Positions 6,122 through 28,508 of a DNA stretch of 64,000 nt are shown piece after piece; within the stretch, counting starts at the first letter, position 1, and each line of letters begins with the position of its first letter. The position numbers and the translations under genes are program-made. The stretch lies in NCBI GenBank assembly GCA_014871385.1, contig CM026426.1, positions 38,905,799 through 38,969,798 of the forward strand, given 5' to 3'. The DNA comes from Ceratodon purpureus. Taxonomy: Eukaryota; Streptophyta; Bryopsida; Pseudoditrichales; Ditrichaceae. The notes beneath the pieces are model-generated. The model saw only the letters and a list, made by a program, of their open reading frames with translations, did not search any database and was not told the DNA's origin.

Positions 6122-6610
6122 AATATGATTTTCCCATTTGGCATCCGACTTGTTAATGTCATAAACTTGTAAAAGCAGGCAACGTTGGTTTTAAGACAAA
6201 ACGCTGAACCGGATGATGTCAAACCAAAGACAAAACATTGAACAATAGATCAGTCTGTAACAGTGCCAAACATGTAGACATTGTTTGGAACAGTGGAGTG
6301 TTTTTGTTGCTCTAACACTATAATCTATCTTCATTATTAATAAACCAAAACCACATAACCGTAACAAAAACTTCATGTCATTGAACAATACAAAACATAT
6401 GAGCATATAAAGAGCACAATGTTAAGCCATACGAGATGGTAATGGAAAGAGCATTCTTGGAAACAATCAAGGTATAAGATAGACAAACGGACTTTGAAGG
6501 CCTATAAGATCACTTTTTTAACCATTGCACTACCAAAGGTAATGAGAAGGAACAATACAAACCTTCGATTTTTTGTATTTTTTTAGATCTCTTTTGTACA
6601 TCTTTGTTGA
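6122..6610. other. Intergenic, nothing recognised
   Basis: AT-rich sequence between the CACTA remnant and the hAT-type element. A reverse frame at 6191-6406 is Cys/Leu-rich and resembles nothing I know. It continues, once the element at 6619-8125 is removed, into the sequence after 8134. Confidence 0.4.
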
Positions 6611-6744
6611 GTCAAGATCATGGTTGTCATAATGGACCGACCGTCCGTTAGTCCGTTAGTCCGTCATGGTGACAAGACAGACCCCCGTGTCCGTCACATA
6701 AGGGCGTTGACCAGTTGACTCACGGTAAGGGTAAAACGGGATTA

Positions 6745-7075
6745 TCCTACGCTGAATTAGTGCGGGCGCGAGCGGGTGGGCGAAAGCAGGACGACGGGCG
6801 CGAGCATCCGCGCGAACGGGATGTCACGGGCGCGCGCAGGAGTGCGGGAGAGCGAGGGCGCGTGCGTCCTTTCGGCCGCGCGCGTGCGCGAGCTAACGGG
6901 CGCGAGCGTCACTGCGGGCGCGATTCAGTTGACGGTCGCGAGCACACTTATTGGGCGCGGTCATGTGGGCGCGAGCCTGGATCGGGCGCGCACAGTATTG
7001 GGCGCGTGCGTTCGGGCGAGTGCGCTGCATCGGGCGCCGACGGTTGGGCGCGAGCGCTGCAGGTTAGTAGGGAAA
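6745..7075. repeat. GC-rich degenerate tandem repeat (GGGCGCGAGC-like)
   Basis: About 330 bases made of imperfect copies of GGGCGCGAG/GGGCGCGTG, far richer in G+C and CpG than anything else nearby. It yields long open frames on both strands (Arg/Gly/Ala-rich) that are by-products of composition. Similar words recur at 7925-7975 inside the same element. Confidence 0.8.
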
Positions 7076-7248
7076 GAGTACCATCTGGCAAAATGACAAG
7101 AGAGGGCATGTATTTCAGGAGAGGGCAATTGGGAAGTGCAATGTTTATCGAAAAGTATTTCAAAATTGTGGCAGTAAATCACTTACAAAAAATGTCCCCT
7201 CTTATGGAGAACTGAGAATATCACATTGTTGTCACTACTTGCCTACTT

Positions 7249-7920: not shown

Positions 7921-8712
7921 GCGAACAGGCGCGAGCAGGCGCAAAGATGCGCGCGGACATGACGACGGGCGCCACCCATGGTAAACAGTAGTAAACTGTG
8001 AGGACAGTAATTTTGCTCGCGGTCGGGAGCCCGTCCGATAAGCGTCCGTCCGATAACCGTCCGTCACGTTCGTCACGTGACTAGACGACAATTTTATGGC
8101 CCGTCCGTCTATTATGACAACCCTGGTCAAGATGTTGTAGTGTCGTGCTAAGATATATTTCTTTTTAGAACCTTCTCTCACATAGCTAATATGGACATAG
8201 TATTTTAAATGTGGTTGGAATGTACTCATTTGCTCTCGAATCCTCCAAGACACTTCTCTTGCCCACAACTTCTGCTCTCGAGCTTTGATTCTCCGCGCGT
8301 GATCTAGCTCCAGAGCGAAAGTTGGCTCAATATATGTGGAAAGTGATTTCCACGGTTGGCACGCCGGAATACTAATTCCGGTAGAAAAATGATAAAAATT
8401 AAAAAATTTTGTGTTAGGAACACGGAAGTACTACTTAGATAAATGTATAAACCGGTTAAGACGGTTGGCTGAATAAATAAGAGAACCGGAAGGTCTGCCG
8501 GGTGAGATCCGGTCGTCTGAGTCGAAGGAGAGGAAGCACCGTCCATGTGACGGAACCGTGACCCAGCGGACTTAGGGTAACAGCCGGAGGGTGCGATTCA
8601 CGCGGGAAAAGTGGCTGCGACCATTAAAGCGCCGCCCGCCGCGACCATTCAATGATGAAAGGCTACGACCGTCCGTCATGATGGGCTACGAACGGGCGGG
8701 AATGAGTGCAGG

Positions 8713-8720
8713 TATAAAAG
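8713..8720 (+). promoter_or_regulatory. TATA box of the CCGG-rich element
   Basis: TATAAAAG in the context GCAGGTATAAAAGGAGG, about 210 bases upstream of the ATG at 8923. A C/T-rich stretch 30-45 bases downstream (CTCCTCCTTTCTTTTG) suits a transcription start near 8745. This is the best core promoter by eye in the first 12 kb. Confidence 0.55.
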
Positions 8721-8922
8721 GAGGAAGAGCAACCGTGCTCCTCCTTTCTTTTGTCATTTTGTGGAGCGCTGGATCCTTGTGTTCCTCGGCGGAGTGCGCA
8801 GTTAGGGTTGTGACGGTAGGAGAGTGATGGTGAGACGGAAGTATTTTTTGTTAGTCGAGGGATTGTGGTGAAGACCGTGCGTGCAGGTCCTACCGGAGTG
8901 AGAGTGAGGAGGACTTAGCAGG

Positions 8923-10776
8923 ATGAGTAGGAAGGGGAAAGAGCCGGCGGAGGAGGGACAGTTGTTGAAGGTACAACGGGTCGTTGATGCCGGTAGACGA
9001 CCGAGAGTGAGAGCTCCTCCGGACCGCCTTAGAGGTCATGGGCTATGCGTTACTATTGGACAAGGCGTGGGGGTGGAGACATTCCCTTCCGGCATAGGAG
9101 ATCCTCGTCAAGAACCCCGACAATCGAGGAACCATCCGGGGAGAACCGGAGCAGTGGACGGCACAAGACTGGAAAGATACGTACGGCTTCACCAACGTTG
9201 GGGAGGTCTCCGTACCGGAGGCTTGGGACTTTGTGTGGAATTATATCACGGGGTCCGGAGACAGGAGAGAGGGGTGGGACCTGGACGACATCAAGGATGC
9301 GAGAGCCCGGAGGGTAGTAGGGTTTATGAACCCTATTTTCTATCCGAAAAAGCCCAAACGGATCACCATCAAGTGGGCGTCTATTTTCCTCGGAGCCATG
9401 GACGGTGAGATCTCCGTAGACTGGGGCCTCATGATAAAGACGATAGTCGACCGGCAGGTAGCCAACCTCCGGAAGACCAAGAAGCAGGCCACCTGCCTTC
9501 CGTCTTTCCTCGTCCACCTCTATCGTCACCGGGGACTGTTAAACCCTAAGGAGATCCTCGAGTATGACGAACCGAAGAGCATGCAAAGGTACGCTGAACC
9601 GGAAGAGGTGTCTGACCAGGAGGATGATGACGACTGTATGGAGGTCCACACGTGCCGGCTAAGAGACCCCGTCCCAGCCCGGAGAAGGGACAGCCAACCG
9701 GATCACCTCGGACTCCCACCCCGACCAAGCGGAACCTGAACACGGACGTCCTGAAACCCAGCGGACCACCTGACCACACCGAGGTCTCGTGCCAAGACTT
9801 AGTCAACCTTTCGGAGCAGGTGTCGGCGTATGCCCAGTTCCTATTGTCGACTAGGCAACTGGAGGACCGGTTGGCGAAGGAGGTAGTTTCACTTACGGGC
9901 ACTAACCGGTTGGAAGACTGCCTGATGTCCTTCGCAAGCTCCGGGACCTAGCCAGTCTACAAGCCAAGCACATTGACCAGCTGGAGCAGTACCGGGAGAG
10001 GATCAACAAGCTCCAGCAGGAGGTGCATGATGCCCAAAAGGACTTCAATGACGCCCATGACCGGGCAGCTCATGCCATCCAGTCGGTTGTAGAAGTCAAG
10101 GCCACCTTAGCCCTTCCGGTGGACGTGGCCAATCAGTGCGCCGTCTACCAAGCCTTCTTGACCCGCCAACCGGATCCGGCTTGGAAGTTGATCGTGAAAT
10201 TCATGCACGACCGGACGCAGGTGATGAGGGACACTTGGTTGCAGATGAGACACTTCGTGGAGATCATCAGCGCCGGAAAGGATGGTTCGTCAAGACCACC
10301 AGAGCCACCGGCAGATCGAGAGGAGCCCAAACCATCGGCACCACCCATGGGCCAGGCACAGGTACTACCTTTAGCCTCTCCGGTACAGTCACCCATCTGG
10401 AGCCAAGACAACCGTTGGAGGATCCTCTCCCGGACACCTTGGACAGTTTGCACAACCTCCCCCCCCGGCTGGAATTGAGACTGTTAACCCCGGGAACATC
10501 TCTTTGGAGCCAGACCAAGGTCCACCACCGGAAGACTTTGTTCCGGTACAGGGATCTCCGGAACATCTCTAGGTAGATCTCAGCGCAACCCTGGTGGCTG
10601 CACGATCTCCCTCCCCGGCGGTCCTGGCAGGACTAGCCCAGAAGGCTATCGACCAGCCGGCAGCTGATACCTTGGAAGAGGGCCCTTCGCTGAAGAGGCT
10701 GAAGAAGGGAGCACAGAAGAAGGAACAACCGGATGGAACCCGGCACAGCCCAAGGTTCGATAAGAACAAGGAGTAG
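8923..10776 (+). CDS. Coding-like region of the CCGG-rich element (gag-like or plant-transposon protein)
   Basis: The first ATG after the TATA box (8923) opens a basic N-terminus (MSRKGKEPAEEG). The best-preserved part, about 9233-9560, reads KRITIKWASIFLGAMDG, DWGLMIKTIVDRQ and LPSFLVHLYRHRG. This helical segment resembles, from memory, the uncharacterised domain found in gag-like frames of plant repeat elements. After it come a Pro/Arg-rich linker (about 9650-9760), a Leu/Gln-rich probable coiled coil (about 9780-10160), a segment with PAWKLIVKFMHDRTQVMRDTW, and a Pro/Ser-rich tail. No enzyme motif is present. The region is an old copy that is not one continuous frame. Function unknown. Confidence 0.4.
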
Positions 10777-11760
10777 AAGTTAGGATAAGGACCGGATAAA
10801 ATGGCAGCGACTAACAATGGGGCTCAAGTGCACCAGGCTGTCAATCCGGATAGATAGCGGCAGTAACTAGGAATAGAAGGCGGCCACCGGTCCGGGATAC
10901 CCGGGATCCAAGATCCGGAATTTCTGGATCTCGGTTGGCCACTTGGTTGCTATAGGCCCGATAGGTTTAGTACTTAAGCTGGACGTTTCTCCAAGGCCGG
11001 GGCCTTGTTTTGTACGCCGTTTTGTTGTTGCAATTGAGAATATACTTTTGGATTTGTTGTGTCGACCGCCTGGCTGACGGGTCCGTTACCGTAATGGTTT
11101 GTTGGTACTATTGTCTTCAGTAGTGTTCCGGAGGAGTGTTGAACAGTGGGATAGTTTGGAGAGCGCCCGGAGAGATTGGAAAGGTGTCAAGCGTCGAGTG
11201 TTGACGGTTTTCAATCTGGGAAGGAGCCTGGAGGGGAGGAGAGACGTACTGCAGCAGGGCTAGTAGTCTTAAGGACACGGAGGGCCGTGTGTACACCGGA
11301 ATCCGGAAACGGACCGGTCGCTTCCTGTAGATGGGATAAAAGCCGGATTTCCTACTGCGAACCAATCCGGAAGGGAGATGATATAGTTAGGGTACCGTAC
11401 AACCGTAAGGTGATGTCGTTGTAGTATGATTTCCGTACCCATAACCGGCACTGAGTAGCTTTCCGGACCGGTACCTAGCCATAGAGAAGGATTATTACTC
11501 CACTCTCCGGGTGGTAGATAGGAACATTGGGGTGTCCAGCCACTTTAAGTCACGGGACGGTGGAGAATCCAGCCACTTGAAAGGATAGACGGATCAGTGG
11601 GAACCGGCCACTAGTCTAAAAAGCCGGAAAATAGGAACGAGGCAAAAACTACCGGATCAGACCGACCGGTCAAGAGACGGAAGACGGTTGGATTCGGGTG
11701 GTGATTTCCGTTATGATCTAAAAGGAGGAAAACTATAGGTCTTCGTGGGAACGAACACGG

Positions 11761-12053
11761 AGTGGTTTACTTTGGAGGGTATTTAGAGTGAATTAAGTGC
11801 CTTCTGGAGGAATACGGGTACCACGTCGTGCTACAATAAAACCTTCAGTGTAGGGCACATTGACTAAACGCCGGTAGAATCTCTTATACCAAGATATGTG
11901 ACCAACAATTGGACAAGACATGATCGGCTTTGATTGGAACATAACAAAATATTCGAAAGGAATAGCTTTCACTATTTGCGGCGAAGAGAAATATAACTGC
12001 ATTAATTGCTACATGAGGCAATATTTAGAAGATGGTTGGATAATGCAAATCAT
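11761..12053. other. Flank between the CCGG-rich element and the large transposon
   Basis: No gene. Composition drops back to AT-rich after about 11760. The segment ends at TTGT (12054-12057), which is also found directly after the right end of the large transposon and is the candidate target duplication. Confidence 0.4.
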
Positions 12054-12057
12054 TTGT

Positions 12058-12089
12058 AGGTGAGAGTACACTAGACCCTTGTACTTTTG
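12058..12089 (+). repeat. Left terminal inverted repeat of the large transposon
   Basis: It starts (A)GGTGAGAGTAC and ends CTTTTG, pairing with 22971-23003. It contains the GTAC core that recurs through the element's non-coding sequence. Confidence 0.7.
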
Positions 12090-12312
12090 TATGTCACAGT
12101 GAAAAAAAGGCAAAGTACTAGAATTTGTACTTTGAATTACTCAATATTGGAGGTCGTTTTCTGTTGATTTGTTGTGTCTCCTATATTATACAATACTTAA
12201 GGGGGACTAATTCAATAGTAGTTGAGAAAAAAAACATTAGCACATACATATAATTGATACTTTTGCACAGCCTTAGGCGGATGTCACAAAGTACAAAAGT
12301 ATCAGAAAAGTA
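12060..12312. promoter_or_regulatory. Left subterminal GTAC-word cluster
   Basis: Within 250 bases there are at least six GTAC-centred words, mostly AAAGTAC or its complement GTACTTT (near 12066, 12081, 12115, 12129, 12290, 12310). Subterminal arrays of a short palindromic word are a common form of transposase-binding site. That role is inferred. Confidence 0.45.
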
Positions 12313-12889
12313 CAAAGTTCATGCATCATTGAAACTCGAATGGAAGCTGCCGCTTGTTGGAGAATACCTGACAGGGAGGCCAGTAAGGTGGGAAATGAAT
12401 TGCCATGGTAGCATGATTTAAATTTTGTAGATCTAGCAAAGAAGTAACGGTTTTTTTGCAGCGAAAAAGTTGTGCAAAAGTTGTCTTTTTTCTTAATTTC
12501 TTGGCAGAATCTGGTAGAGCAAGAACCAATCCAGAATGGCCAAGCGTCGAATCTGCCAAAAAGCGCTCTACCGGATATATCTTTTTTTTATTGGTGGCTG
12601 CGCTGGCGCTTGTACTCGTAGTCCTTAAAATACTCTTTGTACTACCACGCAAATACGTGGCATTCCACATTGCCTGTCAGTGAGTTCATCGGACGCTGAG
12701 CCTAAATTAGTTAGTTACTATGGCGCATCATTATGCGTCGGGGCGGCGCCTCAGTCTCCATCAAACTTCAGTCCTCTCATGAGATAGTAGAGGGGGGTCT
12801 CCTTGAATCCTTCCTTCTGATTTTATTTTTGTGTCCATACTTCTGTTGTCCATAGCTGGTGGAGAAGTTCATGTCGACTTCTTCTGTGA

Positions 12890-15800
12890 TTGTTCCTTCT
12901 GCATTTCTCCACGTTGAAGACTTTGCAAAAGTTTTCTTCGAAGGATTTGCTCATGGGAAATACCGCAAAGAGGCGGAGGGTACGAGAGGGACTGAGTCGT
13001 CCTGGTCCAGCTGAACGTGCTGCCGAGGTCGAAGCCCTTGAGGCTCAAAGACTAGTTACCGCTAGTGCAGCGCGGGAGAGGAAAACTAGCCAGAGAGTAC
13101 ATGATAGGGAGAGGGTAGCAGAGTCTCAAGTTCTAGCACATGACTTGGCGGGGCAAGCTGCACCTTAGTCTTTTACAGTCAGAGAAAATAGTAGGATTTC
13201 CTTGCGAATTTGTCAAGCCATTGTTCAAGAGTTGAAATAGTGTCCTAATCTAGCTGGGCGGAGAGATGTCATGGAAAGGGTTCTTCGTCATTCTACAGTT
13301 TCTCCCTTTTTGCCTGATTGTTATCACCGTCCACAAGAAGCCCGAGCTAGGGACGCGTTCATTGACAACTTTAAGAATGAGCTTCGTCTAGTTAAGGTTG
13401 CAAACTCTCATGATCTGTTAGCTCGGAAATCAGCACTCTTAGATGCCGCAGTTAGTTCCGGCTCCAATGTCCAAGTGAGTGCGTTGTCTAGAGTTTTGGA
13501 CACAACTAAAGAGAGTATTAGCATTGCTTTGAGAAGGAGGTTGCCAGAGGAGGACTCTCAGGGGTTACTTCCGAAGTTGCGTTTGTCTCCGCAGCCAAGG
13601 GCTGGTCTTTTGGAATATGTCAAAGAGTGCATACTCCGTTGGTGGGAGATTCAAACCAAAGTTTCTCCTAACAAGAAGGACATTGTTAGGCACAGAGTTG
13701 GGCGCAAACTTTGGCTTTTACCTCATCCTACTCATTATCTCTGTGAGACGCAAGTAAGTTTGCCTATACAATCTCTCTAACTCTGTTTTAAAAATTGGCA
13801 ATGTCGAGTACGCAGAGTGCTCTAACTTCTGCAGTATTCACTAGAATGTACTGTTCCTCCACCTTTGTTGTCGAAGAGTACATTACGTCACAATTGTCTA
13901 TGCTATGTAGGTAGAGTACCTTGCCTCGGAGTACACTTGTATTCTTTTGGAAGAGAACAATCATATTCGTACTTTTGATTGTGTTAGAGTACAGCCATTT
14001 ACAAGTTCAAGGTATTCATAGTTCCGATGTGTACTCACAGTGTAGTAGTCCTACTGAATGTAAGAAGCTCATGTACACTTTGTATCCCTTTCGAACTATG
14101 TATCATGAGATGCTACTTTCATAAGTCTACTAGCGTACCATTTGTATTACATTTCTACTTCAAAGTACTTTAAGTAATTTCAAAGTAAACAAAGTACTCA
14201 ATGTGTACTATGATGTGGTTATTTAATGGTATATGTAGATTATTAGTTTTTTAGTATCCGGGATTGTAATTAAGTACTAACAGTTAGCAACGTGTGCTAT
14301 GCTCTGATTTTTTACAGACTTCGTATTTCCAACGTTTCCTCGAAGTCCACCCTGAATGCAGTGTTCGGCAGAGGGCATTCGAGAGGTTGAAGCCGTGGTG
14401 GGTAAAGAAATTAAAAGAGAGGAATACATGTTGCTGCATCTATCATGTTGAGATGGACATGATGAAGGCTAGATTAATCAATCTGAGGGACAAGCTGAGG
14501 GGTTTTCATACCTCAACAAATTGCACTTGTCTATGTCTAGTGTGTGCAAACGAAGAAGAAGGGACTGGTTGCCATGCTCACGTCTCTATTTTCAAACACA
14601 TTACAGCTATGTGGGAGGCTTGTTTATGTCCAAAGGGAGAGTATCATAGATGGCATAGGTTGGAGTGCCTTATGGGTGATTGTACACAGTGTGGCTTTCA
14701 TTTATTCAAGGTCTGTCCATTAGAGTTACAAGATTCTCAGTCGTTCCTACTAAAGTGGAAGTGCTTTGAGTACTACAAGGTTAGAGTGCATGCAGAAACA
14801 GGGCAGCCGAAGAAAAGACTGAGAGAGGCTTTCAAGGAGACGCCAGTCCATGAGTTCCTCTCGTACATGGAGAAAACAGTGACTACTTTTGTGACTCACA
14901 ATTTCAGAGCGAGGTGGCAAGATGAGCAATGTCAGCTCATGATGAAGAATATCCCAGAAGGAGTTCTTGTGTCCCATATAGACTATGCTGAAAATTATAC
15001 CTTTGCAATTCAAAACGAAGTGCAAAGCATGTATTACTTCAGCACTAGTGTTACCATTCTTGTGCATATTTCGATGTGGAAGGAAGGTGACGATATCATG
15101 AAGCAAACGCATGATTACATTTCGGATGACAAGGCGCATGATTCTGCATTTGTGCAACATTGTTTAATGTTGCATTGGGATTGGGTGGTTGATGCTGGAC
15201 TTTCCATAGAGGAGCATTGGGTATTCAGTGACGGCTGCAGCTCGCAATTCAAGTGTGCGACTGCCATGTTTTTTGTTGGTCGGTATCCGTCGCTCACTTG
15301 GGGGTGCTTGATGCGGTGGAATTTTTCTGAATCAGCTCACGGGAAGGGGGAGTGGGATGGTGCAGGTGCAGTGGTGAAAAGGGCGTTGAAGGCCGAACAA
15401 ATTCGAAACCCCCTGAGACCGCTTTAGAATGTTGGGCACGTTGTCGATTTTTTGAAAGAAAACTACTCTGAGCGTGTTTCCAGCACATACGCTCAGTCAA
15501 CAACTGACCCAATCTCTCGCGTCTTCTGGAACATAGGCGAATTTGAAGTAGATCACAGAGATAGTAGTATTAAATGTCGCACTTTACCTGGCTCTAAGAA
15601 TTTGGATTCGGTTATGGGTTTCTCTGTGTCTGACCCTACTCTTCTTAGAGCTCGTGAACTCTCTTGCTTTTGCATCCCCTGTGTCGATGGTAATTGGAAT
15701 AACTGTGAAAACTCGTCTCATGTGCAGGAGTGGAAGGTCCAGCATCTACGGCCGCTTAGTACCGGCGATGTAGCAAACCAGATTGAAGTGCTTGATGACG

Positions 15801-16222
15801 ATGGGATTCATGATGGGACTTCCGTGGAGATAGGTGATTTGGTGTCTGTCGGTGACAATTTCATGATCCCAGCAGAGAGTGAAAACGAAGACGGAGTGGA
15901 CTACTACATACTGCAATGTCAACGTACAAAGTTTGTATTGCAGGAGGGTTTGTCATATCTATGGGGCGGTGTTTTTTCAGCAGGGGACAAGGTGATCCGA
16001 GCTAAGTACTATAAGAAGTATGGAAGAGGTGATAAAACATACGTGTCTTGTGATAGGGCAGTTGATGCACATATAGATGCTCATCTGGTCAGAGCTTGCA
16101 AGTTCCCAATGGTTCTTGCAGCCCATAGAGTTAAAGGTAGTCCAGTGTACAAGATTACAGCTGAGTCAAAGAGGATTTGTGAGGATGCGTTGAGGGACAT
16201 GTGGGCATTTAACGAAGAGTAG
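12890..16222 (+). CDS. DDE-like transposase of an unassigned superfamily
   Basis: Block one (12890-13753) holds a basic start (GNTAKRRRVREG), an Arg/Ala/Glu-rich helix and a helical domain with RARDAFIDNFKNELR and SALSRVLDTTKESI. It ends at a CAA|GTAAGT donor. A short exon-like stretch near 13912-14010 (SEYTCILLEENNHIRTFDCV) follows. The main exon opens after TTTTTTACAG at 14318. It contains a Cys/His cluster (CTCLCLVCANEEEGTGCHAH; CLCPKGEYHRW), then three motifs that look like a DDE core: DYAENYTFAIQNE (about 14980), WVFSDGCSSQFKCATAMFF (about 15220) and SAHGKGEWDGAGAVVKR (about 15335). The C-terminal part has EIGDLVSVGDNFMIP and DYYILQCQRTKFVL, loosely like a BAH fold. Similar motifs (SDG..SQ.K; HGKG..DG.G..VKR) occur in a family of animal transposon proteins, recalled from memory. 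TAG codons at 13166, 13238 and 15425 interrupt one otherwise continuous frame. Confidence 0.65.
13795..14290. promoter_or_regulatory. GTAC-rich intronic sequence in the transposase gene
   Basis: Words such as GAGTAC, AAAGTACT and AAAGTAC recur about fifteen times between the first and last transposase exons. That is far denser than in the flanking genome and the same word class as at the element ends. Confidence 0.4.
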
Positions 16223-16415
16223 AAGTCCACAACATAGCATCAAAAATGTATTTCCTATAGCTTAATACAAACTCTGAATGCCATTGTCGTAAGTTCAGCC
16301 GATGATATAATATGTCCATTGTGTCCATTGTGTACAATATTCAAAATATGTACAAATTGTCTTCTAAGAAATGTACTGCATTTGTACACTGTGTACAATA
16401 TGTGCTTAGTGTACC
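16223..16415. other. Convergent intergenic spacer between transposase and SET genes
   Basis: The transposase (forward) and SET gene (reverse) converge here with under 200 bases between stops. The spacer repeats TGTACAATAT/TGTACAAATT and TGTGTCCATTGTGT and presumably holds both 3' ends. Confidence 0.5.
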
Positions 16416-17519
16416 CTAGGTAGAACAAGTACTTTGTAAGTCTACTTTTCCCCTGCATAAAGAACTCTCACACTTGCATTCAAAGTACGGCAAATCAGGG
16501 TCTTCTCTGTTGAAGTCAGTTCCGTAATCCCAGGATAGTTCCTCCAATGGCTGAATTTTGCGTTTTGTGAAGAATGCCAGCTGGTAGAAGCTCCGGTCTA
16601 ACCTTCCGACTAGGACTGGGACATCTACCAAGTTCGAATCCTCGCACCTGTAGACATAGGAAACAGGGGCATTAGAAGTATGGAGAATACGCATAAACCG
16701 ACTAAGAACATACGGTGCAAATAGGAGTGGGACCCACCGGTGATTGAGGAATCGGGCCACATTTCCGAACTGGGTTGCATCAAGGCACAAAGCTGAGTTG
16801 TCGTTCAACACCCGTTCAGCGGCCCAGTCCGCATCAATCTGTAAGCTGTAAGAGGAGCCCCCCTTCACTGCCCGGTTCCTAAGCATTTGCTCGGCATTGG
16901 TCAGAATCTCCCCCGTCATCTCAAATACAAACGCCCCTCTAGAAATAGGTTCTCTTGCCCGGATACCCCAACCCATGCGGGGTGTACGAAAAACCTCTAC
17001 ACTGTATCTCATGCCCTGCTGTACAACACGGTTCCCACAATCGATACGACATCCACACTTTGCATTACACTCAGAAATGAAGGCCCAGGACTTGTATGCC
17101 TAACATGTGACAACACTCTCAATACGGCGTAGCTTAGTACAGTAGCACTGTAGAGTACAAGTACAGTCATAGGCTTCATTTATGCATCGTTGGAGAAAAG
17201 AATCCTTGAGGAATCCGCCTGCCCTATATGCAAATCTGCCACCGTTGGCGGTTGTTGCACATGTACATGGACACGTGGCGGTCAAGCAGTCCCTTGATGG
17301 GCAGGAACAGAACAATCCCTTGCCTAGACTGGACAGCGTTGGGTTCACAATTGCCTGGTCGTAAACAATGCTCTTGTTGATGTATTGAAAACTAGGAAAA
17401 GAAACATCAGAGAACACAAGAGGTATTGGGGTCTTCTCTAGTCCCCTAGACAAATCTTCAACCATATAAGTGAACTGGCCCTGGTAGGTTTCCCATTCCA
17501 ACAGCCCACATTCCCACAA
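16416..17519 (-). CDS. SUVR-like histone-lysine methyltransferase (pre-SET, SET, post-SET) carried by the transposon
   Basis: SUVR-family enzymes methylate histone H3 lysine 9 at plant transposons. From 17519 down, the pre-SET region has VEDLSRGLEKTPIPLVF, then clustered cysteines (CSCPSRDCLTATCPCTC; CINEAYDCTCTLQCYC; SECNAKCGCRIDCGNRVVQQ), the SUVR arrangement. The SET domain follows: MGWGIRAREPISRGAFVFE, DATQFGNVARFLNHR then CEDSNLVDVPVLV (the NHxCxxN cofactor motif), FYQLAFFTKR, and ELSWDYG. The post-SET motif CKCESSLCRGK ends it. A 90-bp intron (16648-16737, GTGGGT to CTACAG) splits NHR from CEDSN and splices in frame. One TAG at 17100-17102 interrupts the frame between the Cys clusters. 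All visible catalytic residues are present, so the ancestor was probably active. It lies inside the inverted repeats of the large transposon, convergent with its transposase. Confidence 0.85.
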
Positions 17520-17660
17520 TTGTTATGCGACAATGTCAATGTATTGAAGTCAACCCCGCAATTGAGGTTACAATACAAAGCTGGCCACAAGTGAACTACA
17601 TTCCGCAAACCCTCCACAAAATCTACCAAAATTGACAACGACGTTCCATCTCCAGCGCTG

Positions 17661-18797
17661 CTACTTCCGGCCCTTGGACGTCGCCATATCTACCTTGCGT
17701 TTCTTCTCTCCTTTCGTCTTTCGCGCGCTCCCGGGAGATGCCTCATCATCGCCTTCTACAGGTTCTGGAAGTTCCTTCGCACGTGCCCGGGTGATCCTCT
17801 CAGTCGCAATGTGGGTTCTCGGTTCTACTTCCTCTCCACCAGCAAGAGCCTCATGAAACAATTGTGTCACGCTCTTATCCACGCAGTGCAGATTTTCAAT
17901 CGCAACCTGTTCACCGTGGTCTCTTTCTCTCTCGCTCGGAATAGTCTGCTGCGGCCCTATAACTGGTTGCTTGACCCTCTTGCCGCGGCTCTCTACTCCC
18001 CTCTAGACAACACGTGTAATGGAAACCTATGGTTAGTAATATAAACTGAAATCTAAAAATCCATCCCAATCTTTTATAAATCTATCCAGACTACGCATAT
18101 TACAAAACAGTAAAGGAGTTTCACCTGTGGGTTCTACGGCTGGACTTTCCGTGTGGCTGACGTCGTGTTTCCTCCCGGTTAGACACTGAGATCCGGGAAT
18201 CGGTTGAGTGGGTGGAGATGTAACCTCCATCTGTGTGCACACCACCTGCAGAGCCTCAACAACGTTATCTCTGTCCAGAATTTGTAGGTGTCGGATAAGA
18301 GATTTGGACGCTGCATTCTCCCCGGGTTCCACTTGATTGGGGACCTCTGCAGTTACAGGGCTGATGAACTCAGTGTCGTAGGACTTGAATACCGGCAGCA
18401 CTCCCAGAGAAGTTTTTGCAGGTTCTACCCCTCTACCCGAGCCTGTTGATCTGGTTGTCCCGAAACTGGAGGGGAGGGTGGGCATCTTCTCATCATTATC
18501 TTCATTGCTTGAAGAGTTGTCGTCAGAGTCCAGCTCCGGCTCCGAAGATCCTACTTTTCGACCACCTTCTCCGTCCAAGCATTCGAAGACAACTGGATCC
18601 TCCCTCTTCCGTTTGGCGCCACTCGCAGTCTGCTTCGACAAGATCCTGGAAGGGCCATCCTGCAACAGCACTGGCAACTCAGTGTCTTCGATGACGTCCG
18701 GATCAGGTAAGTAAACCTGGCTCAATCTCTCTTCCACCACAATAGGCAGCGTTACAGCAGGCGCATGAAAGGAAAAAGTGGAAGACTCTGCAAACAA
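17661..18797 (-). CDS. Probable N-terminal region of the SUVR-like gene (disordered, acidic and basic)
   Basis: From 18797 down the frame is open and rich in acidic and Ser residues: PDPDVIEDTELPVLLQDG, GAKRKREDPVVFE (nuclear-localisation-like), SDDNSSSNEDNDEKMPT. A second open block (about 18000-17661) is charged and Lys/Arg-rich (ERERERDHGEQ, ERITRARAKELPEP, RKTKGEKKRKVD). A splice site is likely near 18033-18120. SUVR proteins have long disordered N-termini before pre-SET, and this block sits directly upstream on the same strand. I infer it is the same gene, but the join across 17520-17660 was not resolved and it could be a separate nuclear protein. Confidence 0.45.
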
Positions 18798-18829
18798 CCA
18801 TTCAATCTTCTAGGTTAAATTTAATCGCA

Positions 18830-19378
18830 AAGTACAAACTCTGGTTACAAGAATCAAAAACGGACTTTCTAGTACCTCTAACAGGACTCTAATGTACATT
18901 GTGTACTAATATTAGAGTGTGGGTACAAACAATAGTCTCGGCGTTATACAGTAGATACATCATGTTCAAAGGGGTAGACTATGTACAATAGATTTGTACC
19001 TAGACTCATCAAATTAGTACACCAGCATAGTGGCTTAATTGCAGCATTCACAAAGTACTATACATTTAGGACTCTAAAAAGGAAAGATGAAAGTATGTAC
19101 GAAGATTTAGTACACTGCAGATCCAGCTCCTATAGACAGTGTATCACCAACTACCATAGTGTACTCAGTACATCACACATACTACAAAGCATAGCACGCC
19201 CAAATGGACTGTAACAAAGATAAGTACATTCACAGTGACTTACCGCAACATCATAGTTTAATTCGAGAATTAAGTACATCTAGACTCTGCTAAGTACTCT
19301 ACACGCTAGCAAATTCCACAACATAGTACCTAAACTATACAATATACGCGGATATTAGAGACAATGACCCATTTGTAC
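18830..19378. promoter_or_regulatory. GTAC-rich spacer between the SET and RING-like genes
   Basis: About 550 bases with roughly twenty GTAC words (AAAGTAC, GTACATT, GTACACT and similar), the densest patch in the element. It lies directly upstream of the SET gene and downstream of the RING-like gene, so it may hold the SET promoter as well as element-specific binding sites. Confidence 0.45.
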
Positions 19379-21124
19379 TTAGCAAAACATTCGCACATCA
19401 TCAACAATTAACATACCGTTTGTTGGCAACATCGACTTTGCACAGTGTGCCCTTGCTTGGAGAACTCTGACCCTCTTCTCTAACACGCCTAGCTTTCTCC
19501 CTTGATCACGCATTTCCGACGATGGATGTCCCCACCCGAAGCTATTGTACCAGTCCGGATGGGGAACCGCTCCGCAGCCCTTGGCCAAGCACGCCCCGCA
19601 ATTCACGAATACAACAGAAGCACAGAATGGGTGGTAAAGGTGCCTACAACTAGATAGAACAACATCATTGCATGGGAAAGGAAATAGGCACAAACAGCAA
19701 GCTGTAATTGCGATAGAACCCGAATCTCTAGAACTCCCAACGACGGACTCATCAACTGTCTCCGTATACACCATTGGGCGTGACCAGATGGAGGCGTTGC
19801 TCTTCCCTTGCTTCAGCTGGAAGTTTTCGGCGGATAATGCATCGAATAACTTCTGCCTCCCCTCAAGCATCGTTGCCACACCCTCCAGCTCCAATTCGGC
19901 TGCTTTCTGTTCAGCCAAGTCAACCCGCATCTGAGCCTCCTCCTCCTCCAGCTGCTCTTGAATCCCTTCCATCTTGATCTTCTCCCGGACTGAGCTCTGA
20001 CCCTCCGACTCTAGCACGTCGATTCTGACCCTTTTCTGCTGAATTTGATGCTTGCAGCTATCCACCAAGCAGGTCCTCTGCTTGCACTTCGACCTCGCTG
20101 CCTCGGTCCTCTCCAGACAGTGGACCTTCTTCACAGCAAATGCCTTAAGTTCTAAGTGCAACACCCCCATCAATCCCTCTAAATCCTTCAACCTCTCCTG
20201 CACAAGTCCCTTCCTCCATCCCACCAATCCCTCACTCCGATCTTGCACACTCCCCTGCACACAAACCCCAGAACCCATCCCACTTTCGAAATTCCCATCA
20301 CAATCCTCTGTCTCCCCAAAACAAGATCCCAAACCCGGTTCCAGTCCCTCCTTCGCAAGCAGCGACTTCCTCCCACTGTCGAAGGTCCCTCCCCCACCAT
20401 CCCCATCCGTCCCAGGCTCCAATTTGATGCTGCACCACTCTTTTCCCCGCACATCGACGGGACCCTTCCCTTCAAATGTCTTCCTCAAAGCTAGGAGTTT
20501 AGAAAGGTCCTGTTTGTACCTCAACCGCTGGCGCTCATTCGTCTCTGCACCAAAACCGCACCAATCAACGAACCGAGCACCCTCCTTGTATTCAAAAGTT
20601 ACACCTTCCGCAAACTTCACCTTGACGTTGTTAGGGATTTCTCCCGGTCCATGCTGGTACAGGATGGGATGTAGGAATTTCACCCGCGCCACAACCTCCG
20701 GTACCTTGCAATTCAACCAGCAGAATCCGGCACGGCCTCCATCTCCGTAACGACCCCCAAACAACTTCTTCACAGCATCGGCCCACACGGTATTCTTTCG
20801 GAAACGGTGGAGGTTGTCACCTTCTAGAGGAAGACCGTACTTTCTGTGGAAATCCTCCCTAGTCAATGTGCGAGGGGGCGCCTTCAAGCGCCGTATCTCA
20901 GCCTCAACATCCTCCACCGACTGTATTTTCTTGACAGACCTCCCAGCCTTCTTCCGATTCGACGCAGGGACCGCCTTGTCGTTGCGGAGCACGTCGGTGT
21001 TGCCTCCTTCGTCGTCGGTGCACACCTCCGTCGCGGACTCCTCCCTCTTGCTCGAAATGCCAGACTTCGACTGCACCAGTCTCCGGTGTCCGCGCCGTCA
21101 GGCTCTCCTCCATGGCGACCCTAA
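19379..21124 (-). CDS. Coiled-coil and RING-like zinc finger protein carried by the transposon
   Basis: A single open frame of about 565 codons. The N-terminal third is basic (SNRKKAGRSVKKIQ) and holds a conserved-looking segment, REDFHRKYGLPLEGDN, KNTVWADAVKKLFGGRYGDG, RAGFCWLNCKVPEVVARVKF. The middle is a long probable coiled coil rich in Glu/Gln/Leu (about 20150-19850). Near the C-terminus is a RING-like cysteine/histidine array, CCLCLFPFPC, CRHLYHPFC, CGACLAKGCG, suggesting E3 ubiquitin or SUMO ligase activity or simple zinc binding. A good ATG at about 21115 (GGTCGCCATGGAGG) is in another frame, so the true start needs either splicing or a later codon. The composition is more G/C-rich than its surroundings. 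The function within the element is unknown; a DNA- or chromatin-binding accessory protein is a guess. Confidence 0.6.
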
Positions 21125-21199
21125 ACGCTAACACCAAAATGTCGCTACGGCATTCCCCAACAACCTAAACCTCCTAACTCTGACCCTCACACTCACTCT

Positions 21200-21600
21200 G
21201 ACCCTAAACCCTGCGAATGGAGCTCACGGTAAAACCCTCCCAGACGAACCCACAACACCCGCAGCAACGCATAGCACACAGCAGATTCAAAACTAAGATT
21301 CACGAACCCCCCGCCAAACTGAGGTGCGAGACGACGACCGGCGGTCACCGGTCACCCAATGTAACAACCTGCGGTCACCGGTTCCCTGCGTTAGCAGCCA
21401 ATGCAGCAACTGGTGACCACCGGTTACCATTCAAAATTACACCTACCTCAAGAACCGAAATTAATAACTCTCAAATGCTCCGTGACTTCTAGGATTTATG
21501 AAATCTACTTGCGGGGCTATTCTCAGTTAACAAACTAGGCAAAAACGTAGATGAAGTGGACAGCTTAGATTAAAGTTTTTAAAAATCAAATATTAAACAA
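21200..21600. other. Probable promoter region of the RING-like gene
   Basis: Upstream of the reverse-strand gene. It contains several copies of CCGGTCACC/GGTGACCGG-type words between about 21335 and 21430 (CGGTCACCGG, GGTCACCGGTTCC, GGTGACCACCGG), a small palindromic cluster that could be regulatory. No gene is seen. Confidence 0.35.
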
Positions 21601-22560
21601 TTAAAAAAATAATTATAACAAGCAGATAAAAAAGAAATGGATAATGCACAAGGTGCAAACATATAAGTATAAAACAAAAAATATAAAGGAAGTGGATAAT
21701 GCACAAGGTGCACAGGGAGGTCGGAATAAAATATAATGAATGGATGAAGAAGAGAGAGATGAAAATTGAATCATTTGATTGGAAAATAAATTATGTATAA
21801 ACCCAAAAATAAAAAATAAAGTAAAATAAAATAAAAAAGTAGAAGATAGAATTCATAGGAAGATGGTATAGGATTTCTAGAGAAAGATTGAGCAAAAAAA
21901 GACAACTAAATAAGTAGATAAATAAAGGTAGGACTCTAAAAAAAAATTGAATGGATGAATAAAAAAAAATGTGAAAATTTAATCAATAGAATAGAAACAA
22001 GAAAAAAGGAAAATAATGAAAAGGAAAACTCACTAGGTGAGTAAATGGTAAGTTCAGTGAAATGGTATAGGATGTGACGAAAAAGATTGAACAATAAAGG
22101 AGAAATAAAAAAAATAAAAAATAAAGGTAGGACCAAAAAAATAAAAATAAATAAATGAGAGAATGATTAGAATTTGAAAAAATCAAAATCAAAATCAAAA
22201 TCAAAATAAATAGTGGACAAATAAAAAAAAAATAAAAAAAAAAATAAAAAAAGTAGGACCAAAAAAAAAAAAAACGAATAAATGAGAGAATGAATAGAAC
22301 TTGAAAAAAAAAAAAAACAAAAAACAAAAGAAAAAAACAAACAAACAAACGAACAAAATAAGGACGAAATATATGGAAATGAAATGGAGGTGAGTAAAAC
22401 ATAGATGTACGAAGATGGTGTACGATGTCTAGATAAGGATTGAACAATAAAGATCAATTAACTAACTAAATAAAGATAGGACTCCAAAATAATATTGAAT
22501 GAATGGATGAAGAAGACAAAAATGAAAATTGACTCATTACATTAGAACTTAAAAAAAGTG
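21600..22560. repeat. Degenerate A-rich tandem array inside the large transposon
   Basis: The phrase GATGGTATAGGAT..CTAGA..AAGATTGA.CAA recurs near 21861, 22053 and 22412. GAATGGATGAA.AA and TAGGAC(T)C.AAAA recur between those copies. The units are therefore imperfect and of uneven length (roughly 190-360 bases), expanded by A-runs and a (AAAATC) microsatellite at 22185. The long Phe-rich reverse frames here are composition artefacts. Confidence 0.6.
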
Positions 22561-22970
22561 TAAGTGGCGAGATGTTTGTTGACTTTGAAACACTTTTGAT
22601 AATATAATATATTTGAATTCCTATATCTATCTTTTGTAAAATGTCAAGGTCTGCACGATCAAGCCTACAAGAAACCCCTCATGCATACCATGACCACTAT
22701 ACCTAGGTTTAATCTACCCAATACCATGTCTTCTATCACAAATGAACCCTGTTAAAATTCAATGATCAAGTAAGACCCTAAAGTCTACACCCTAAATTTA
22801 CAAGTTCAATATGGACACCAAAATTCTAATTACATTCAAATTTTCATCAGATCCGACGATGCTCGTGGCCCGAACCCTATCCCTTCATCCGACGGCCAAT
22901 GTTGACCAGGAATTAGTACTCCCGATAGAATAAAGTACTTTGGGGTACAATTGGTACAACAGGTTTTTGC

Positions 22971-23003
22971 CAAAAGTGACATGGGTCTAGCGTACTTTCA
23001 CCC
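22971..23003 (-). repeat. Right terminal inverted repeat of the large transposon
   Basis: Read on the reverse strand it begins GGTGAAAGTACGCTAGACCC and ends CTTTTG, pairing with 12058-12089. GTAC words continue inward (TAGTACTCC, AAAGTACTTT, GGGTACAATTGGTAC at 22915-22960). Confidence 0.7.
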
Positions 23004-23007
23004 TTGT

Positions 23008-23547: not shown

Positions 23548-25237
23548 TTATAATTTTGGTTTTTGACTATGGGGATCTAATGTTTTGGGTAATGGTTGGT
23601 GGTTTTCTATTCTTCTTTTGTAAAGAAGAATAGACATGGCATATTGTATGGAAATACTGTTTATGTTTTTAAAGGTGTTTTTGATGGTAGGCAAAGGTAT
23701 TTTGAAATTGTCTACAAGTAGTTTCATTGATGGAATTTGCGTGGTAGCTCTAGCGCCTGCTGTGATGACAATAAGGGGGTCAACTTTCCATCCTCTAGCG
23801 GTAATATTGGCAATTAATGGATTGTAATTGTTGGTTTTAGCGTCAAATGTTTCTGGTAAGAATCTGTCATTGCAGTATGCGAATTCAATGAATTGTATGG
23901 TAAGATTGGGGTTAATTTCTGTAGGGGGATCGCTTTGGTATGGTAAACCTTTAACGCAAAGAATGTTTGGTCTAAATCTAGAGTTACAATGGCATCTTTG
24001 TGTGTCATATGTGCATGGAAGTAACCAATTGGAAACGGTATTTTCTGAGGGTTTATCATTGAAGGTGCCCGCGTTCATTAGAATAAAACAACAAGTTTTT
24101 TCGGATGAGACTAGTAGTTTTCTAATTTCCCATACTGCTTTGTTGTGTCTTTTGACTCGGAGGGAATGTATATGTTTTGTTGGCATGTGAGTAATACATG
24201 TAGCCATGTATCCGGTTTATGTGAATTGCAAATGGGACATTTGAAAGATGGAAATCTTTCTCTTCCAAAAAACATTTGTTTCTAGCTTGGCCCATGTAAG
24301 TTCCCGCACGGAATTTTATGAGGCATGATTTTTGTTTGTCAGTGATGGCTGGATTTTCCCAAAATTTGTTAGAAAGTTCATTGTCTATGTCTGCATTTCC
24401 CGTCCATTTGCAAATGTTTGGGGTTTGTATGGCCATTATTTCTAGATTGTTTTCTCTGTCATATTTTTTGATTTGTTTTTCTAGAGTTCTAACTGGTCCT
24501 TTATGTGAAACATCTATTCTCGAAGGCCAGTTATCATTTTGGAAGTAGAGCGGAGTGGCATGGGCATGTTCGTATGAGTGTAGGGCTTTTCTATGTGCTA
24601 GCTTTAGGCCTTGTTTTGCTAAGTAATCTGCTTCTTTGTTGCCGTCAATGTTGATGTGTGCTCTAACTTTGTATAATGAAATTGGTTGTGTTCTTTGTTG
24701 GAGTAGTTCTACTATGGAGGCAAGTGTGGTTTGATCGGGGTGACTATTATGTAGTGTGGGATGTTTTATTTGTGTATTAAGTAAGTATAGTACATTTAGG
24801 CAGTCGGTAAATATATATGCTGGTTCGTTGGGGAATTGTGTGTTGATAATTCTAAGTGTTTTGTGTACTGCCATCATTTCTGCACGTAGTATATTTTGGT
24901 GTCCGTGGAGTCTTTTGGGGATATTGAGACCTTTGGGGCTGTAAATACCGTATCCAACTCTTTCTCTCAGCCATTTACCGTCGCCAATTTCTTTTGGGGG
25001 TTTAAATGATCCATCTGTGTAATAATTGAACTGGAGGTGGAATTTTAGTGGTAGATTTGTTTGGTAATTTGGTAGTTGTGGGATAGGTGTTGAGTTATTT
25101 GTGGGGCTGTTTGGATAGTTTAATTTGGACCATTTTTTACTGGGATTGACATGGGTGTTTAAGGGTGTCGGGGATGCAGTTTGTGTGTGAATTTGTAATA
25201 TTTGGAGATTGTTAATTGTATGAACGAGTTGATTCAT
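23548..25237 (-). pseudogene. LINE RNase H domain and C-terminal domain
   Basis: From about 25060 down: FNYYTDGSFKPPKE (first Asp), NILRAEMMAVHKTLRI (Glu), AYIFTDCLNVLYLL (Asp) and KVRAHINIDGNKEADYLAKQG (His/Asp), which together give a complete RNase H active site. After it come CLIKFRAGTYMGQARN and CPFAIHINRIHGY-like sequence, the remnant of a zinc-knuckle region. A further domain continues in a shifted frame from 24207: NAGTFNDKPSENTVSNWLLP, NITARGWKVDPLIVITAGAR and the tail YAMSILLYKRRIENHQPLP. The frame change falls near 24150. Confidence 0.75.
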
Positions 25238-25707
25238 TTGTTCGTGAGTACCTATGTTGTTGTTTTGGTGGTGGATACAGAGTATTCTGAGCGTAGAAAG
25301 TTCTTTTCTTTCAAGTTTAAGTTCGGGGGGAATTGTTGGCTCTTCATATATAATGGTGTCTACGGCAAAATGGGCAATAATGTGTGTGTTTGGGAATGGG
25401 CCGGTGTAAGGGTTAAAGTTCTGGTACCAGTTAGTATCCGGAGAGATGAGTATGGTGATAGTGTTTGGGTCATTTTTTGCCGCAAGGCGGGTCCAATGAA
25501 TGGCTTGTTGTAAGTCGGTTTCATTGTGGGGGTGAGCGTAGCCAATTCCTTTCCATTTATGATCAAATGCTTTTCCTAGGGAGCCAAATATTATATATCG
25601 TTAAAATAGTGAGTAAAATTGGGTAAATTGTGTAAGGCATGTAACTGGTGATGAAAAGTAATATTGGTGGATGTTGAATGTTGCTGTTAGTAAGTCTAAT
25701 ATTTCAG

Positions 25708-27196
25708 TTAATATTGTATATTGAGCACATTTAAGTAGATCATTTTTTGGAATACGATATTTATATCTTTGATATAGCTACACAATTTCAGTTTCAAATG
25801 ATTGGGTGGATGGCTCAAGGCCATGTGGGGTATTTTTTGCATGTTGATATTGTTTCCATAGCCATAGTAGTCTAGTTTTCGGGATGGTGATGAGGTGCCG
25901 GCCATTGTTTTCGTATATATCTGCGACGACATGTTGTGTTTGGATAATGTTCGAGTCCGTTTCGATGTCATTTTCTGGATTGCATTCATTAATAGAGACA
26001 TGTGCTAGTGGAATAATTGTGGCCGGAGTAACGTATCTCGCATCTTTTTGTTGTTCTATGGAGAAGTGTTTTTTGATGATGTTTAAAAAGTGTTTATGTT
26101 GTTGTTTAGTGTAGTATTGGGTAAGTAATTCAGTATTGTGGAGACAAGTGTTAGTGTCATTCCAAGGGAAAAGTTTGCTTTGACTACGCCATTTGTTGTA
26201 TGTGTTATTATTTGGCGTGGTCCATTGGCATAAATATGTTGTATCTTTATAGTTTATCCCATTTGGATCTTTGATTTTATGTTGTTTGTGGCTTAATATT
26301 GAGTGTATGGGGAATTGTCTTGGATATTTAAGCATATTGTTGGGAGGAGGAGGAAGTTCGGGAATAGGAGGGTTGGGAGGGTGTATTGGGGGGATCAGTT
26401 GTTGTGGTAGGATGTTAAGGTTTAATAATATGTAATCATTTTTTAGAGTTCTTGGGGGGAAGTGGAATCGACATGGTATTTGGCATCTTTGATGGCAAGT
26501 GGGTTGACAGAATAATTGATTTGCAATATTTAGCGCACTTTTTATGAGTTTTGTGAGGTTGGAGTGGTATATTTAAAAATCGTCTGGATTCATTAGGGTG
26601 GTACCGTTAGGCATGGTTATTTGTTCTAATTTTATTATAATATTATGTAATAGTAGTTTTTTTAGTAGTTTGAGAGCAGTTTTGGGGTTTAGGCCATGTA
26701 GATATTGTGCTTCTTGCATCTAGGCGGTTTCAAGTGGAGATGGGTTTAATAGAAAAAATTTCTATTGTACTTTTAAAGTGGACTCTAGCTTCATGTTTAA
26801 GTAAAAACAATGTTCTAGTGATAAGGGATCTCACACAATCTTGATATTTGATGCGGTCTATTTCTTTGGAGCCTCCAAATTTTGCAAGTATGAACTGTAT
26901 CAAGCTAAAGTATATTTACCGAGTCTGCCTTTGTCATTGAGAGCATTTTATAATTGTTCTCCAATACATCGTAGATAGGCATTTTTTAATGAAAAGGCTT
27001 CCATTCCGAATAGATCATGTGGGAGTTGTGTAGCAATATTAGATGTACTTTTTGGTAGTCCACATATTGTTTTGTGGAGTGCTATGATCTTTTTGTCAAG
27101 TTTTTTAATGGCTGGCATAGAGTATGGTACTGCGTAGAAGCTGTATGCAATACCGGCACGTATGACTGTATTGGCCATATTGATTTTTTGTCTCAT
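25708..27196 (-). pseudogene. LINE thumb and linker between reverse transcriptase and RNase H
   Basis: It contains the thumb-like block INMANTVIRAGIAYSFYAVP, SMPAIKKLDKKIIALHKTIC then LPHDLFGMEAFSLKNAYLRC (27196-26948), characteristic of the region just after the reverse transcriptase. Further down is a poorly conserved linker (26335-25778: KWRSQSKLFPWNDTNTCLHN, KTRLLWLWKQYQHAKNTPHG). The blocks are separated by stops and small shifts. Confidence 0.65.
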
Positions 27197-27404
27197 AGTG
27201 GCTGGGCAAAGCCACTAAGGCTTGACATTGTTTGATGACTTTAGCCGTGGTGGTGTTTATTTGTGTTTTCTATTTAAGTGATGGTGCAAGGTTTATTCCA
27301 AGGTATGTATAAGGATCATGTTGGTCCAAAACTGGTATTGGTTGGTTTCTCTAGTTTATATTGGTGGCTTGGATCTATACTTTGAATGCTATGGGGTTCA
27401 TTTT

Positions 27405-28508
27405 TTATTTATTTGGGCATCCGGTCACTGCACATTTAGGTATACCAAGATCCATTCCAGCCCATTCGCAGAATTTGTCTAATATAATTAATTGTGTTTG
27501 TAGTGCTGCTAATTTGTTGGCAATAGTTGCTAAATCATCAGCATATGCTGCGGATGAGATTGTAACTTTGGATGTACCAAAGGTGTATCCATTGTCACCT
27601 TGTTGTAACCATCTAAGAAGTGGTTCTAAGAATATTATAAATAAATATGGACTAAGAGTATCTCCTTGTATTGTTCGTCTTTGGATGGGAATAGGTAGAG
27701 TTTTACCAAAGTGTTCTCCAGAAAATATAGTAGAGGATTGTGAGTTTATATTTCCTATCAGGTTTATAGCATCGGTTGGGTATCCAAGATCTTTCATTAT
27801 GGCTAAGAGTCTCGCATGGTCAATGGAGCCAAAAGCATTTTTGAAGTCAATGTAGGGAATATATATATCATGATTTGTAAATTTTGCATCTTCTAAGGCT
27901 GCAATGAGTAGTTGAAGTTGTCTGGATGTTCCTCTTTTAGCTCGGAATCCTTCTTGGCTGTCATGCAGAACTTGATGTCTTTCACCGTAAGTGGAAAGGA
28001 TAAAGGTTAATGTACTAGTAAAGAGTTTGTATATGGTGTTCACTAAAGCCATAGGCCTATGGTTTGGAAGTTGTGATGGATCACCTTTTTTGTATAATAA
28101 GACAGTTAGACTGGTTTTGCATGTTGCAGGTATTTGTTTTTGTTTGTAGCAATGTTTAAAAAATAAAAATAGTAGTTTGTAGAATCGTGGAGGCATGTTT
28201 TTCAGAATAGAGTTAGGTATTTTGTTTGGGCCTGCGGCTTTGTTATTTCCTAGGTTTTTGAGGCATAAATCGTAAGTTTCTTGATGAGAATATGTGTGTA
28301 AGGGGATTTGTGGTTCTCTGCGTTGATCAATTGTGAGTCCGTCCAAGTCATGCCATGGGTATTGTCTAATGCTACATATGCATTGTGGAGGATGTGTAGT
28401 TTGATAGTGACATGTGGGGACTGTTGGCCGGTTACTAATAGACTGTTGGATGTAAATTTCTTGAGCAATATCTTCCGGACTAGTTAAGATGTTATTTTGT
28501 CTATCCAT
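27405..28508 (-). CDS. LINE reverse transcriptase
   Basis: An uninterrupted stretch of 367 codons covers the palm and fingers: NKAAGPNKIPNSIL, LTVLLYKKGDPSQLPNHRPM, LVNTIYKLFTSTL, SQEGFRAKRGTSRQLQ, YIPYIDFKNAFGSID (first catalytic Asp), IQGDTLSPYLFIIFLEPLLR, and AAYADDLATIANKL (catalytic DD of the YADD box). All reverse transcriptase core motifs are seen in order. It is part of the reverse-strand LINE; no endonuclease lies upstream. Confidence 0.9.
   Translation of the reverse strand: MDRQNNILTSPEDIAQEIYIQQSISNRPTVPTCHYQTTHPPQCICSIRQYPWHDLDGLTIDQRREPQIPLHTYSHQETYDLCLKNLGNNKAAGPNKIPNSILKNMPPRFYKLLFLFFKHCYKQKQIPATCKTSLTVLLYKKGDPSQLPNHRPMALVNTIYKLFTSTLTFILSTYGERHQVLHDSQEGFRAKRGTSRQLQLLIAALEDAKFTNHDIYIPYIDFKNAFGSIDHARLLAIMKDLGYPTDAINLIGNINSQSSTIFSGEHFGKTLPIPIQRRTIQGDTLSPYLFIIFLEPLLRWLQQGDNGYTFGTSKVTISSAAYADDLATIANKLAALQTQLIILDKFCEWAGMDLGIPKCAVTGCPNK

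Follow-up and report, generated by a model that had tools for sequence, protein, structure and literature searches.

The stretch of DNA analysed here (hereafter, the window) comprises 64,000 nucleotides of contig CM026426.1 of Ceratodon purpureus (assembly GCA_014871385.1, positions 38,905,799 to 38,969,798 of the forward strand). Positions 12058–23003 of the window look like one cut-and-paste DNA transposon of 10.9 kb with two convergent genes, judging from its ends, its target-site duplication (TSD), and its open frames. An earlier note, made from the letters alone, had placed inverted ends at 12058–12089 and 22971–23003 with TTGT on both sides, and all of these were found again. The left terminal inverted repeat (TIR; 12058–12089, plus strand) aligns to the right one (22971–23003, minus strand) over 32 columns, of which 28 are identical, three are mismatches, and one is a gap; the outermost base of the ends, which is unequal (A versus G), lies outside this count. 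The 20-base core of the ends, GGTGARAGTACRCTAGACCC, matched nothing in the 64 kb other than the two ends when up to three mismatches were allowed, and the mean number of matches in 100 shuffles was 0.00. The TTGT duplication adjoins the element at 12054–12057 on the left and at 23004–23007 on the right, a 4-base match that would by itself be weak evidence. Inverted ends and a TSD, as in a TIR DNA transposon, are both present. Neither the core scan nor a comparison of the element with the remainder of the window, at the limits used, turned up a further copy of the ends or genes there. A frame of 102 codons runs across the joined flanks of the reconstructed empty site. Among 3000 random joins, however, a frame of at least that length arose in 1807, and 373 equalled it on both sides, so the restoration of a reading frame was not used as an argument.

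The gene on the plus strand (12953–16222), which the earlier note had called transposase-like, has its first ATG at 12953 and consists of two exons, 12953–13753 and 14318–16222, separated by a GT-AG intron (13754–14317) that is in phase 0 on both sides. Its frame is interrupted by TAG codons at 13166, 13238, and 15425. A candidate DDD triad spans 14981–15358, with the D codons at 14981 (HIDYAENY), 15230 (FSDGCSSQFK), and 15356 (HGKGEWDG), in this order and, from the coordinates, 83 and 42 residues apart. The order fits a DDD transposase, with the three residues as its putative catalytic acids, and the initial description of this gene is upheld to that extent. No convincing relative of the protein was found in Pfam or in the Protein Data Bank (PDB), the best match being to a helix-turn-helix model for ISL3 transposases, which at E 0.0073 missed its cut-off. 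By eye, the C-terminal part (15428–16222) has the look of a chromatin reader of the BAH/Tudor type, with no Pfam model in support.

The transposase motifs look Sola-like, and, being of candidate DDD type, they suggest together with the 4-base TSD that the element itself is Sola-like. A 4-bp TSD is part of the definition of the Sola superfamily in PMC10741241, whose account of the group describes DDD transposases, TIRs of 11–1124 bp, lengths mostly of 2–9 kb with some above 15 kb, and an occurrence in moss. Compared by this description only, our element agrees in its TSD, its candidate DDD-type motifs, and a TIR length and size within the reported range; unlike it, the Sola elements of that account are described with no mention of a SET gene.

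The gene on the minus strand contains, at 16419–17522, a coding part for pre-SET, SET, and post-SET regions. A GT-AG intron at 16737–16648 splits the motif FLNHR (16751–16737) from CEDSNL, while ELSWDYG lies at 16541–16521 and CKCESSLC at 16478–16455. The Pfam profile search returned a SET domain with an E value of 4.6e-19; the Pre-SET model fell below the cut-off in one profile scan and was absent from another. When the predicted intron was removed, 48 PDB sequences matched at 1e-10 or better, with G9a first (E 1e-33), followed by GLP, SETMAR, Clr4, SUV39H2, and DIM-5, and with the H3K36 enzymes SETD2 and ASH1L weaker, at about 1e-18 and below. The removal also merged two separate G9a pieces of 76.0 and 28.6 bits into one match of 119.8 bits running through FLNHRC. 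This alignment spans the second pre-SET cysteine cluster and the post-SET region; the N-terminal side (SRGLEKTPIP ... CSCPSRDCLTATCPC), which holds the first cysteine cluster, aligned weakly with G9a (4.7 bits). A SET domain with both pre-SET and post-SET cysteines is the arrangement of Su(var)3-9-type proteins, and the domain is, by its sequence, of the H3K9 class. The H3K9-type assignment of the earlier note therefore stands, and the SUVR label rests on NHRC..SNL and ELSWDYG, taken here as motifs of SUVR type. The three motifs that it had reported as intact are indeed all present, but the gene that bears them is not intact: a TAG at 17102–17100 stands after the first cysteine cluster and ahead of the SET domain, so that this copy lacks the uninterrupted coding frame that activity, as opposed to kinship, would require. 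No GT-AG pair that would remove this stop and keep the frame on both sides could be seen by eye.

Farther upstream on the same strand is what is probably the first long exon of this gene (19417–21097, with an open frame from 21097). At 19589–19699 it contains the pattern C-x2-C-x13-C-x-H-x2-H-x2-C-x7-C-x2-C, the C3H2C3 spacing of a RING-H2 finger, within an open frame of 572 amino acids, and none of 20,000 shuffles of that frame reproduced it. The earlier note had counted separate SET and RING-like genes. The results favour one: a GT-AG intron at 18788–19416, in phase 1 on both sides, would connect the exon with the RING-like pattern to those on the SET side, and 811 codons run across the junction without a stop. 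On the SET side no ATG occurs in the frame before codon 109, and the RING-like frame has none in its first 273 codons, the ATG near 21113 being in another frame. Because of the phase-matched junction, the stop-free codons, and the lack of an early ATG in either frame, the two are probably parts of one chimeric spliced gene, which we refer to as RING-SET. Putative linker exons occupy 17661–18787 with approximate splices; from about 18090 to 17480 the splice sites of this model are provisional, as is the 5′ end of the gene. No WIYLD domain was matched in the frames that were profile-scanned, and the N-terminus of the gene lies outside the settled model. Single-sequence structure predictions, made in two runs, were unusable (mean pLDDT 33.4 and 39.2). 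The first covered the C-terminal part of the transposase; the second is the model of the N-terminal side of RING-SET, with long helices predicted at low confidence (mean pLDDT 39).

The present copy is decayed, with stops in both genes. All four of the in-frame stops found are TAG, while the neighbouring decayed elements contain TAG, TAA, and TGA. Such a bias, seen in only four events, would fit the decay of methylated non-CG sites. An alternative genetic code in which TAG encodes a residue was rejected, since long Gln-rich frames of the window, for example the GRAS exon described below, run without TAG, and the TAA and TGA stops of the neighbouring elements also contradict it.

The two genes and the ends share one further property. 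The 5-mer AGTAC was the most enriched in the noncoding parts of the element, with 45 occurrences when both strands were counted; 500 dinucleotide shuffles gave a mean of 11.8 (standard deviation 3.8, maximum 26). When the exon limits were drawn a little differently, 48 were counted in the noncoding parts, where 6.6 were expected, and eight in the coding parts, where 8.3 were expected. In 39 of the 45 sites GTAC is followed by A or T, and its remaining neighbours vary almost freely, so that no single longer repeat has been copied here. The palindrome GTAC is concentrated in five blocks, for which we give descriptive densities: the left end (12058–12330, six sites in 273 bases, 22.0 per kb), the transposase intron (14 sites in 564 bases, 24.8 per kb), the gap between the convergent genes (16223–16418, six sites in 196 bases, 30.6 per kb), the RING-SET intron at 18788–19416 (18 sites in 629 bases, 28.6 per kb), and the right end (22900–23003, five sites in 104 bases, 48.1 per kb). 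Outside the element the density is 2.64 per kb (140 sites), so that the blocks, at 22–48 per kb, are enriched about ten-fold. Over 600 bases, nowhere in the window is GTAC denser than in the RING-SET intron, and no stretch of 564 or 629 bases outside the element (2597 and 2591 such stretches, respectively) held more than nine sites. An element-specific motif dense in noncoding parts, introns included, is the layout known from VANC-type systems, and it was found here with the exceptions named below. Since the ends and the introns of both genes carry one signature, which would not be expected from a recently captured host gene, the array ties RING-SET to the ends of the element and argues against recent capture; the gene is most likely a long-standing part of it. 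The proposal of a TIR element carrying both a transposase-like and a SUVR-like SET gene is in this way reinforced by a motif array common to the ends and to one intron of each gene.

Also within the element, the stretch 21500–22560 is A-rich and of low complexity, with imperfect 84-base direct repeats and only two GTAC sites; a promoter, or an insertion after the element had formed, could explain it.

In plants, H3K9 methylation is a route of transposon silencing, and the SUVR proteins are among its less understood writers. Our preferred reading, put forward tentatively and at slightly less than an even chance, is that the locus is a decayed Sola-like transposon whose RING-H2/SUVR-type H3K9 methyltransferase, encoded beside the transposase, addressed itself through GTAC to the element and silenced it; the anatomy in this reading is well supported, and the function is what we infer. 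GTAC would be the core of a putative binding site for a protein of the element, the candidates being the transposase, given that both ends contain GTAC, and the N-terminal part of RING-SET. Through such binding the methyltransferase would be directed to copies of the element itself and would methylate H3K9 there. The RING part could supply a ubiquitin signal to the SUVR-like enzyme, which we propose in view of the in vitro response of SUVR4 to ubiquitin reported in PMC7218100 and PMC4260354. The likely outcome would be self-addressed heterochromatin that limits expression and damage to the host between bursts. A fuller form, in which a RING-H2 ubiquitin ligase and a ubiquitin-responsive H3K9 methyltransferase would make up a complete writer, directed to the element's copies by the GTAC sites of ends, gap, and introns, so that the element and not the host would set its level of silencing, is unlikely.

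Several observations weigh against the preferred reading. SUVR2 silences without methyltransferase activity, according to the account in PMC4260354, so that catalysis does not follow from a fold of SUVR type. The RING-like part that the earlier note had recognised holds in its cysteine and histidine spacing and not in its profile, as the 572-amino-acid frame gave no match to a RING profile in Pfam, and its best PDB match, Praja-1, was weak (E 0.67). GTAC is absent from 17524–18035, which was assigned as noncoding, and from the intron 16648–16737, and it is sparse in 12331–12949 and in 21121–22899, with two sites each. The five blocks were picked after the site positions were known; a fairer measure comes from the shuffles and the control sets. 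Among control sets from the flanks, two of 300 (ACCGG, CCGGA) and two of 300 (CCGGA) in two runs exceeded the AGTAC score, because of a CCGG cluster in the stretch at 8.0–11.8 kb; with control sets from the right flank alone, none of 300 did. Finally, a single copy was seen, and it has stops in both genes.

The same features can be read otherwise. A rather unlikely alternative is that the element counters silencing, with the SUVR-like protein as a decoy that occupies host SUVR complexes, or that removes silencing factors through its RING part, and with GTAC as an address in the manner of VANC. The anti-silencing VANC system has motif arrays in noncoding DNA and introns, as related in PMC5735166, and such an array is present here; moreover, the action of SUVR2 in complexes without catalysis, again from the account in PMC4260354, would allow a captured relative to poison them. 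The visible SET motifs, however, have been kept, which a pure decoy would not need. It is improbable that RING-SET is a passenger, that is, a host SUVR gene or fragment picked up in the style of Pack-type elements and without function for the transposon. At least one intron has been kept in the SET part, as in capture at the DNA level, and the SET frame has a stop, but the window has its densest GTAC array in the intron assigned to RING-SET, at a density near that of the ends and of the transposase intron, which suggests a long shared history. Also, a RING-SUVR chimera is, to our knowledge, not a plain host architecture.

That GTAC serves only as a transposase-binding site for transposition, with RING-SET acting elsewhere, for example on host chromatin generally, is more improbable still. 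The sites inside both ends, at 22–48 per kb in the end blocks, would suit such a role; sites of this kind would be expected near the ends, yet the largest arrays are in the introns 13754–14317 and 18788–19416. Only a very slight chance is left for a coincidence or an assembly artefact that brought unrelated sequences between two ends matching by accident: one copy only was examined, and against this stand the absence of matches to the ends in 100 shuffles, the presence of a TSD, and the one motif signature that ends, gap, and introns have in common.

The earlier note knew of no described plant TIR element with transposase, SET, and RING-like cargo; near parallels from other hosts are on record. 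According to PMC12730594, citing Repbase Reports 2014, HarbingerS and MuDR elements of Phytophthora have acquired genes for SET histone methyltransferases; these too are DNA transposons with a SET gene of their own, unlike ours in their oomycete hosts and in their superfamilies, and are compared here by the citing description only. The same text mentions TET/JBP genes in fungal transposons. In Arabidopsis, VANC21 of VANDAL21 binds YAGTATTAY motifs located mainly in noncoding regions, introns included, and the likeness to our element, as far as the account in PMC5735166 goes, is a short motif that is dense in noncoding parts and introns and scarce in coding ones. The effect of VANC is a loss of DNA methylation; in our element the binding of GTAC is predicted. 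VANC is not known as a SET protein, and VANDAL elements belong to the MuDR group. DNA methyltransferases (DNMTs) carried by retrotransposons of dinoflagellates and of the charophyte Klebsormidium are noted in PMC5890265, and there, as proposed here, an element takes over a silencing-type methyltransferase of its host, one of the hosts being a charophyte; those are, however, retrotransposons with DNA methyltransferases, and ours is a DNA transposon with a histone methyltransferase. SETMAR of primates, which was among the PDB matches, likewise joins an H3K9-like SET fold with transposon parts, but it is a domesticated host gene that makes one protein, unlike the two genes between element ends described here. 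With the plant proteins SUVR1, SUVR2, and SUVR4, RING-SET shares the motifs NHRC..SNL and ELSWDYG, taken as SUVR-type, and the pre-SET and post-SET cysteines. The host SUVRs differ in their N-terminal WIYLD domain, which is described in PMC4260354; in its stead RING-SET has the RING-H2 pattern and long predicted helices of low confidence.

Among the matches listed in the open-licence literature, in searches only partly aimed at the question, no SUVR-like or RING-SET gene was reported from a DNA transposon of the plant lineage. The public collections that were searched are viral and prokaryotic, with narrow patterns, and have little bearing on plants. In the viral contig collection, transposase queries and patterns matched one, 20, and no stretches and the SET query matched three, none of which was confirmed as a relative. 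A further transposase search gave 61 loci in viral contigs, with tblastn of the element proteins returning one row (E 0.16 over 25 residues), and a transposase pattern gave two loci in prokaryotic genome contigs that are not relatives (best E 0.65).

If the preferred reading is true, the element would be a natural test case for asking whether transposons tune their own silencing, with a writer kept together with a motif array that reaches into its own intron. It would also form the histone equivalent of VANC and of retrotransposons with DNMTs, and would offer a possible route for chromatin enzymes to spread and recombine in plant-lineage genomes.

Other features of the window lie around the element. 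Beside it, the stretch 8000–11800 is GC-rich and has a dense CCGG cluster (5 to 14 per 500 bases) around open frames at 8908–10475; it is possibly another element with a motif array. At 6500–7100, GCGC and CGCG are very dense (21 and 19 per 600 bases, respectively), with imperfect 42-base repeats. On the other side, a decayed LINE-like element (24125–28868) matches reverse transcriptase and RNase H profiles and contains all three kinds of stop. Remains of Tc1/mariner-like transposases are located at 36068–37400, with a match to a Tc3-type helix-turn-helix, and at 45941–46465, as judged by eye. A gene for a GRAS-family transcription factor lies on the minus strand at 48405–50786 (GRAS domain, E 7.2e-37), with an intron near 49058 by eye; such a gene is indicative of a host from the plant lineage (streptophytes). 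Farther along are remains of a hAT-like transposase (54390–57449) and of a Gypsy-like integrase (58500–59600), both recognised by eye, the Pfam scans of their frames having returned no match in support. Within the hAT-like frame 57449–55770, the one interrupting stop and the two terminating stops are all TAG.

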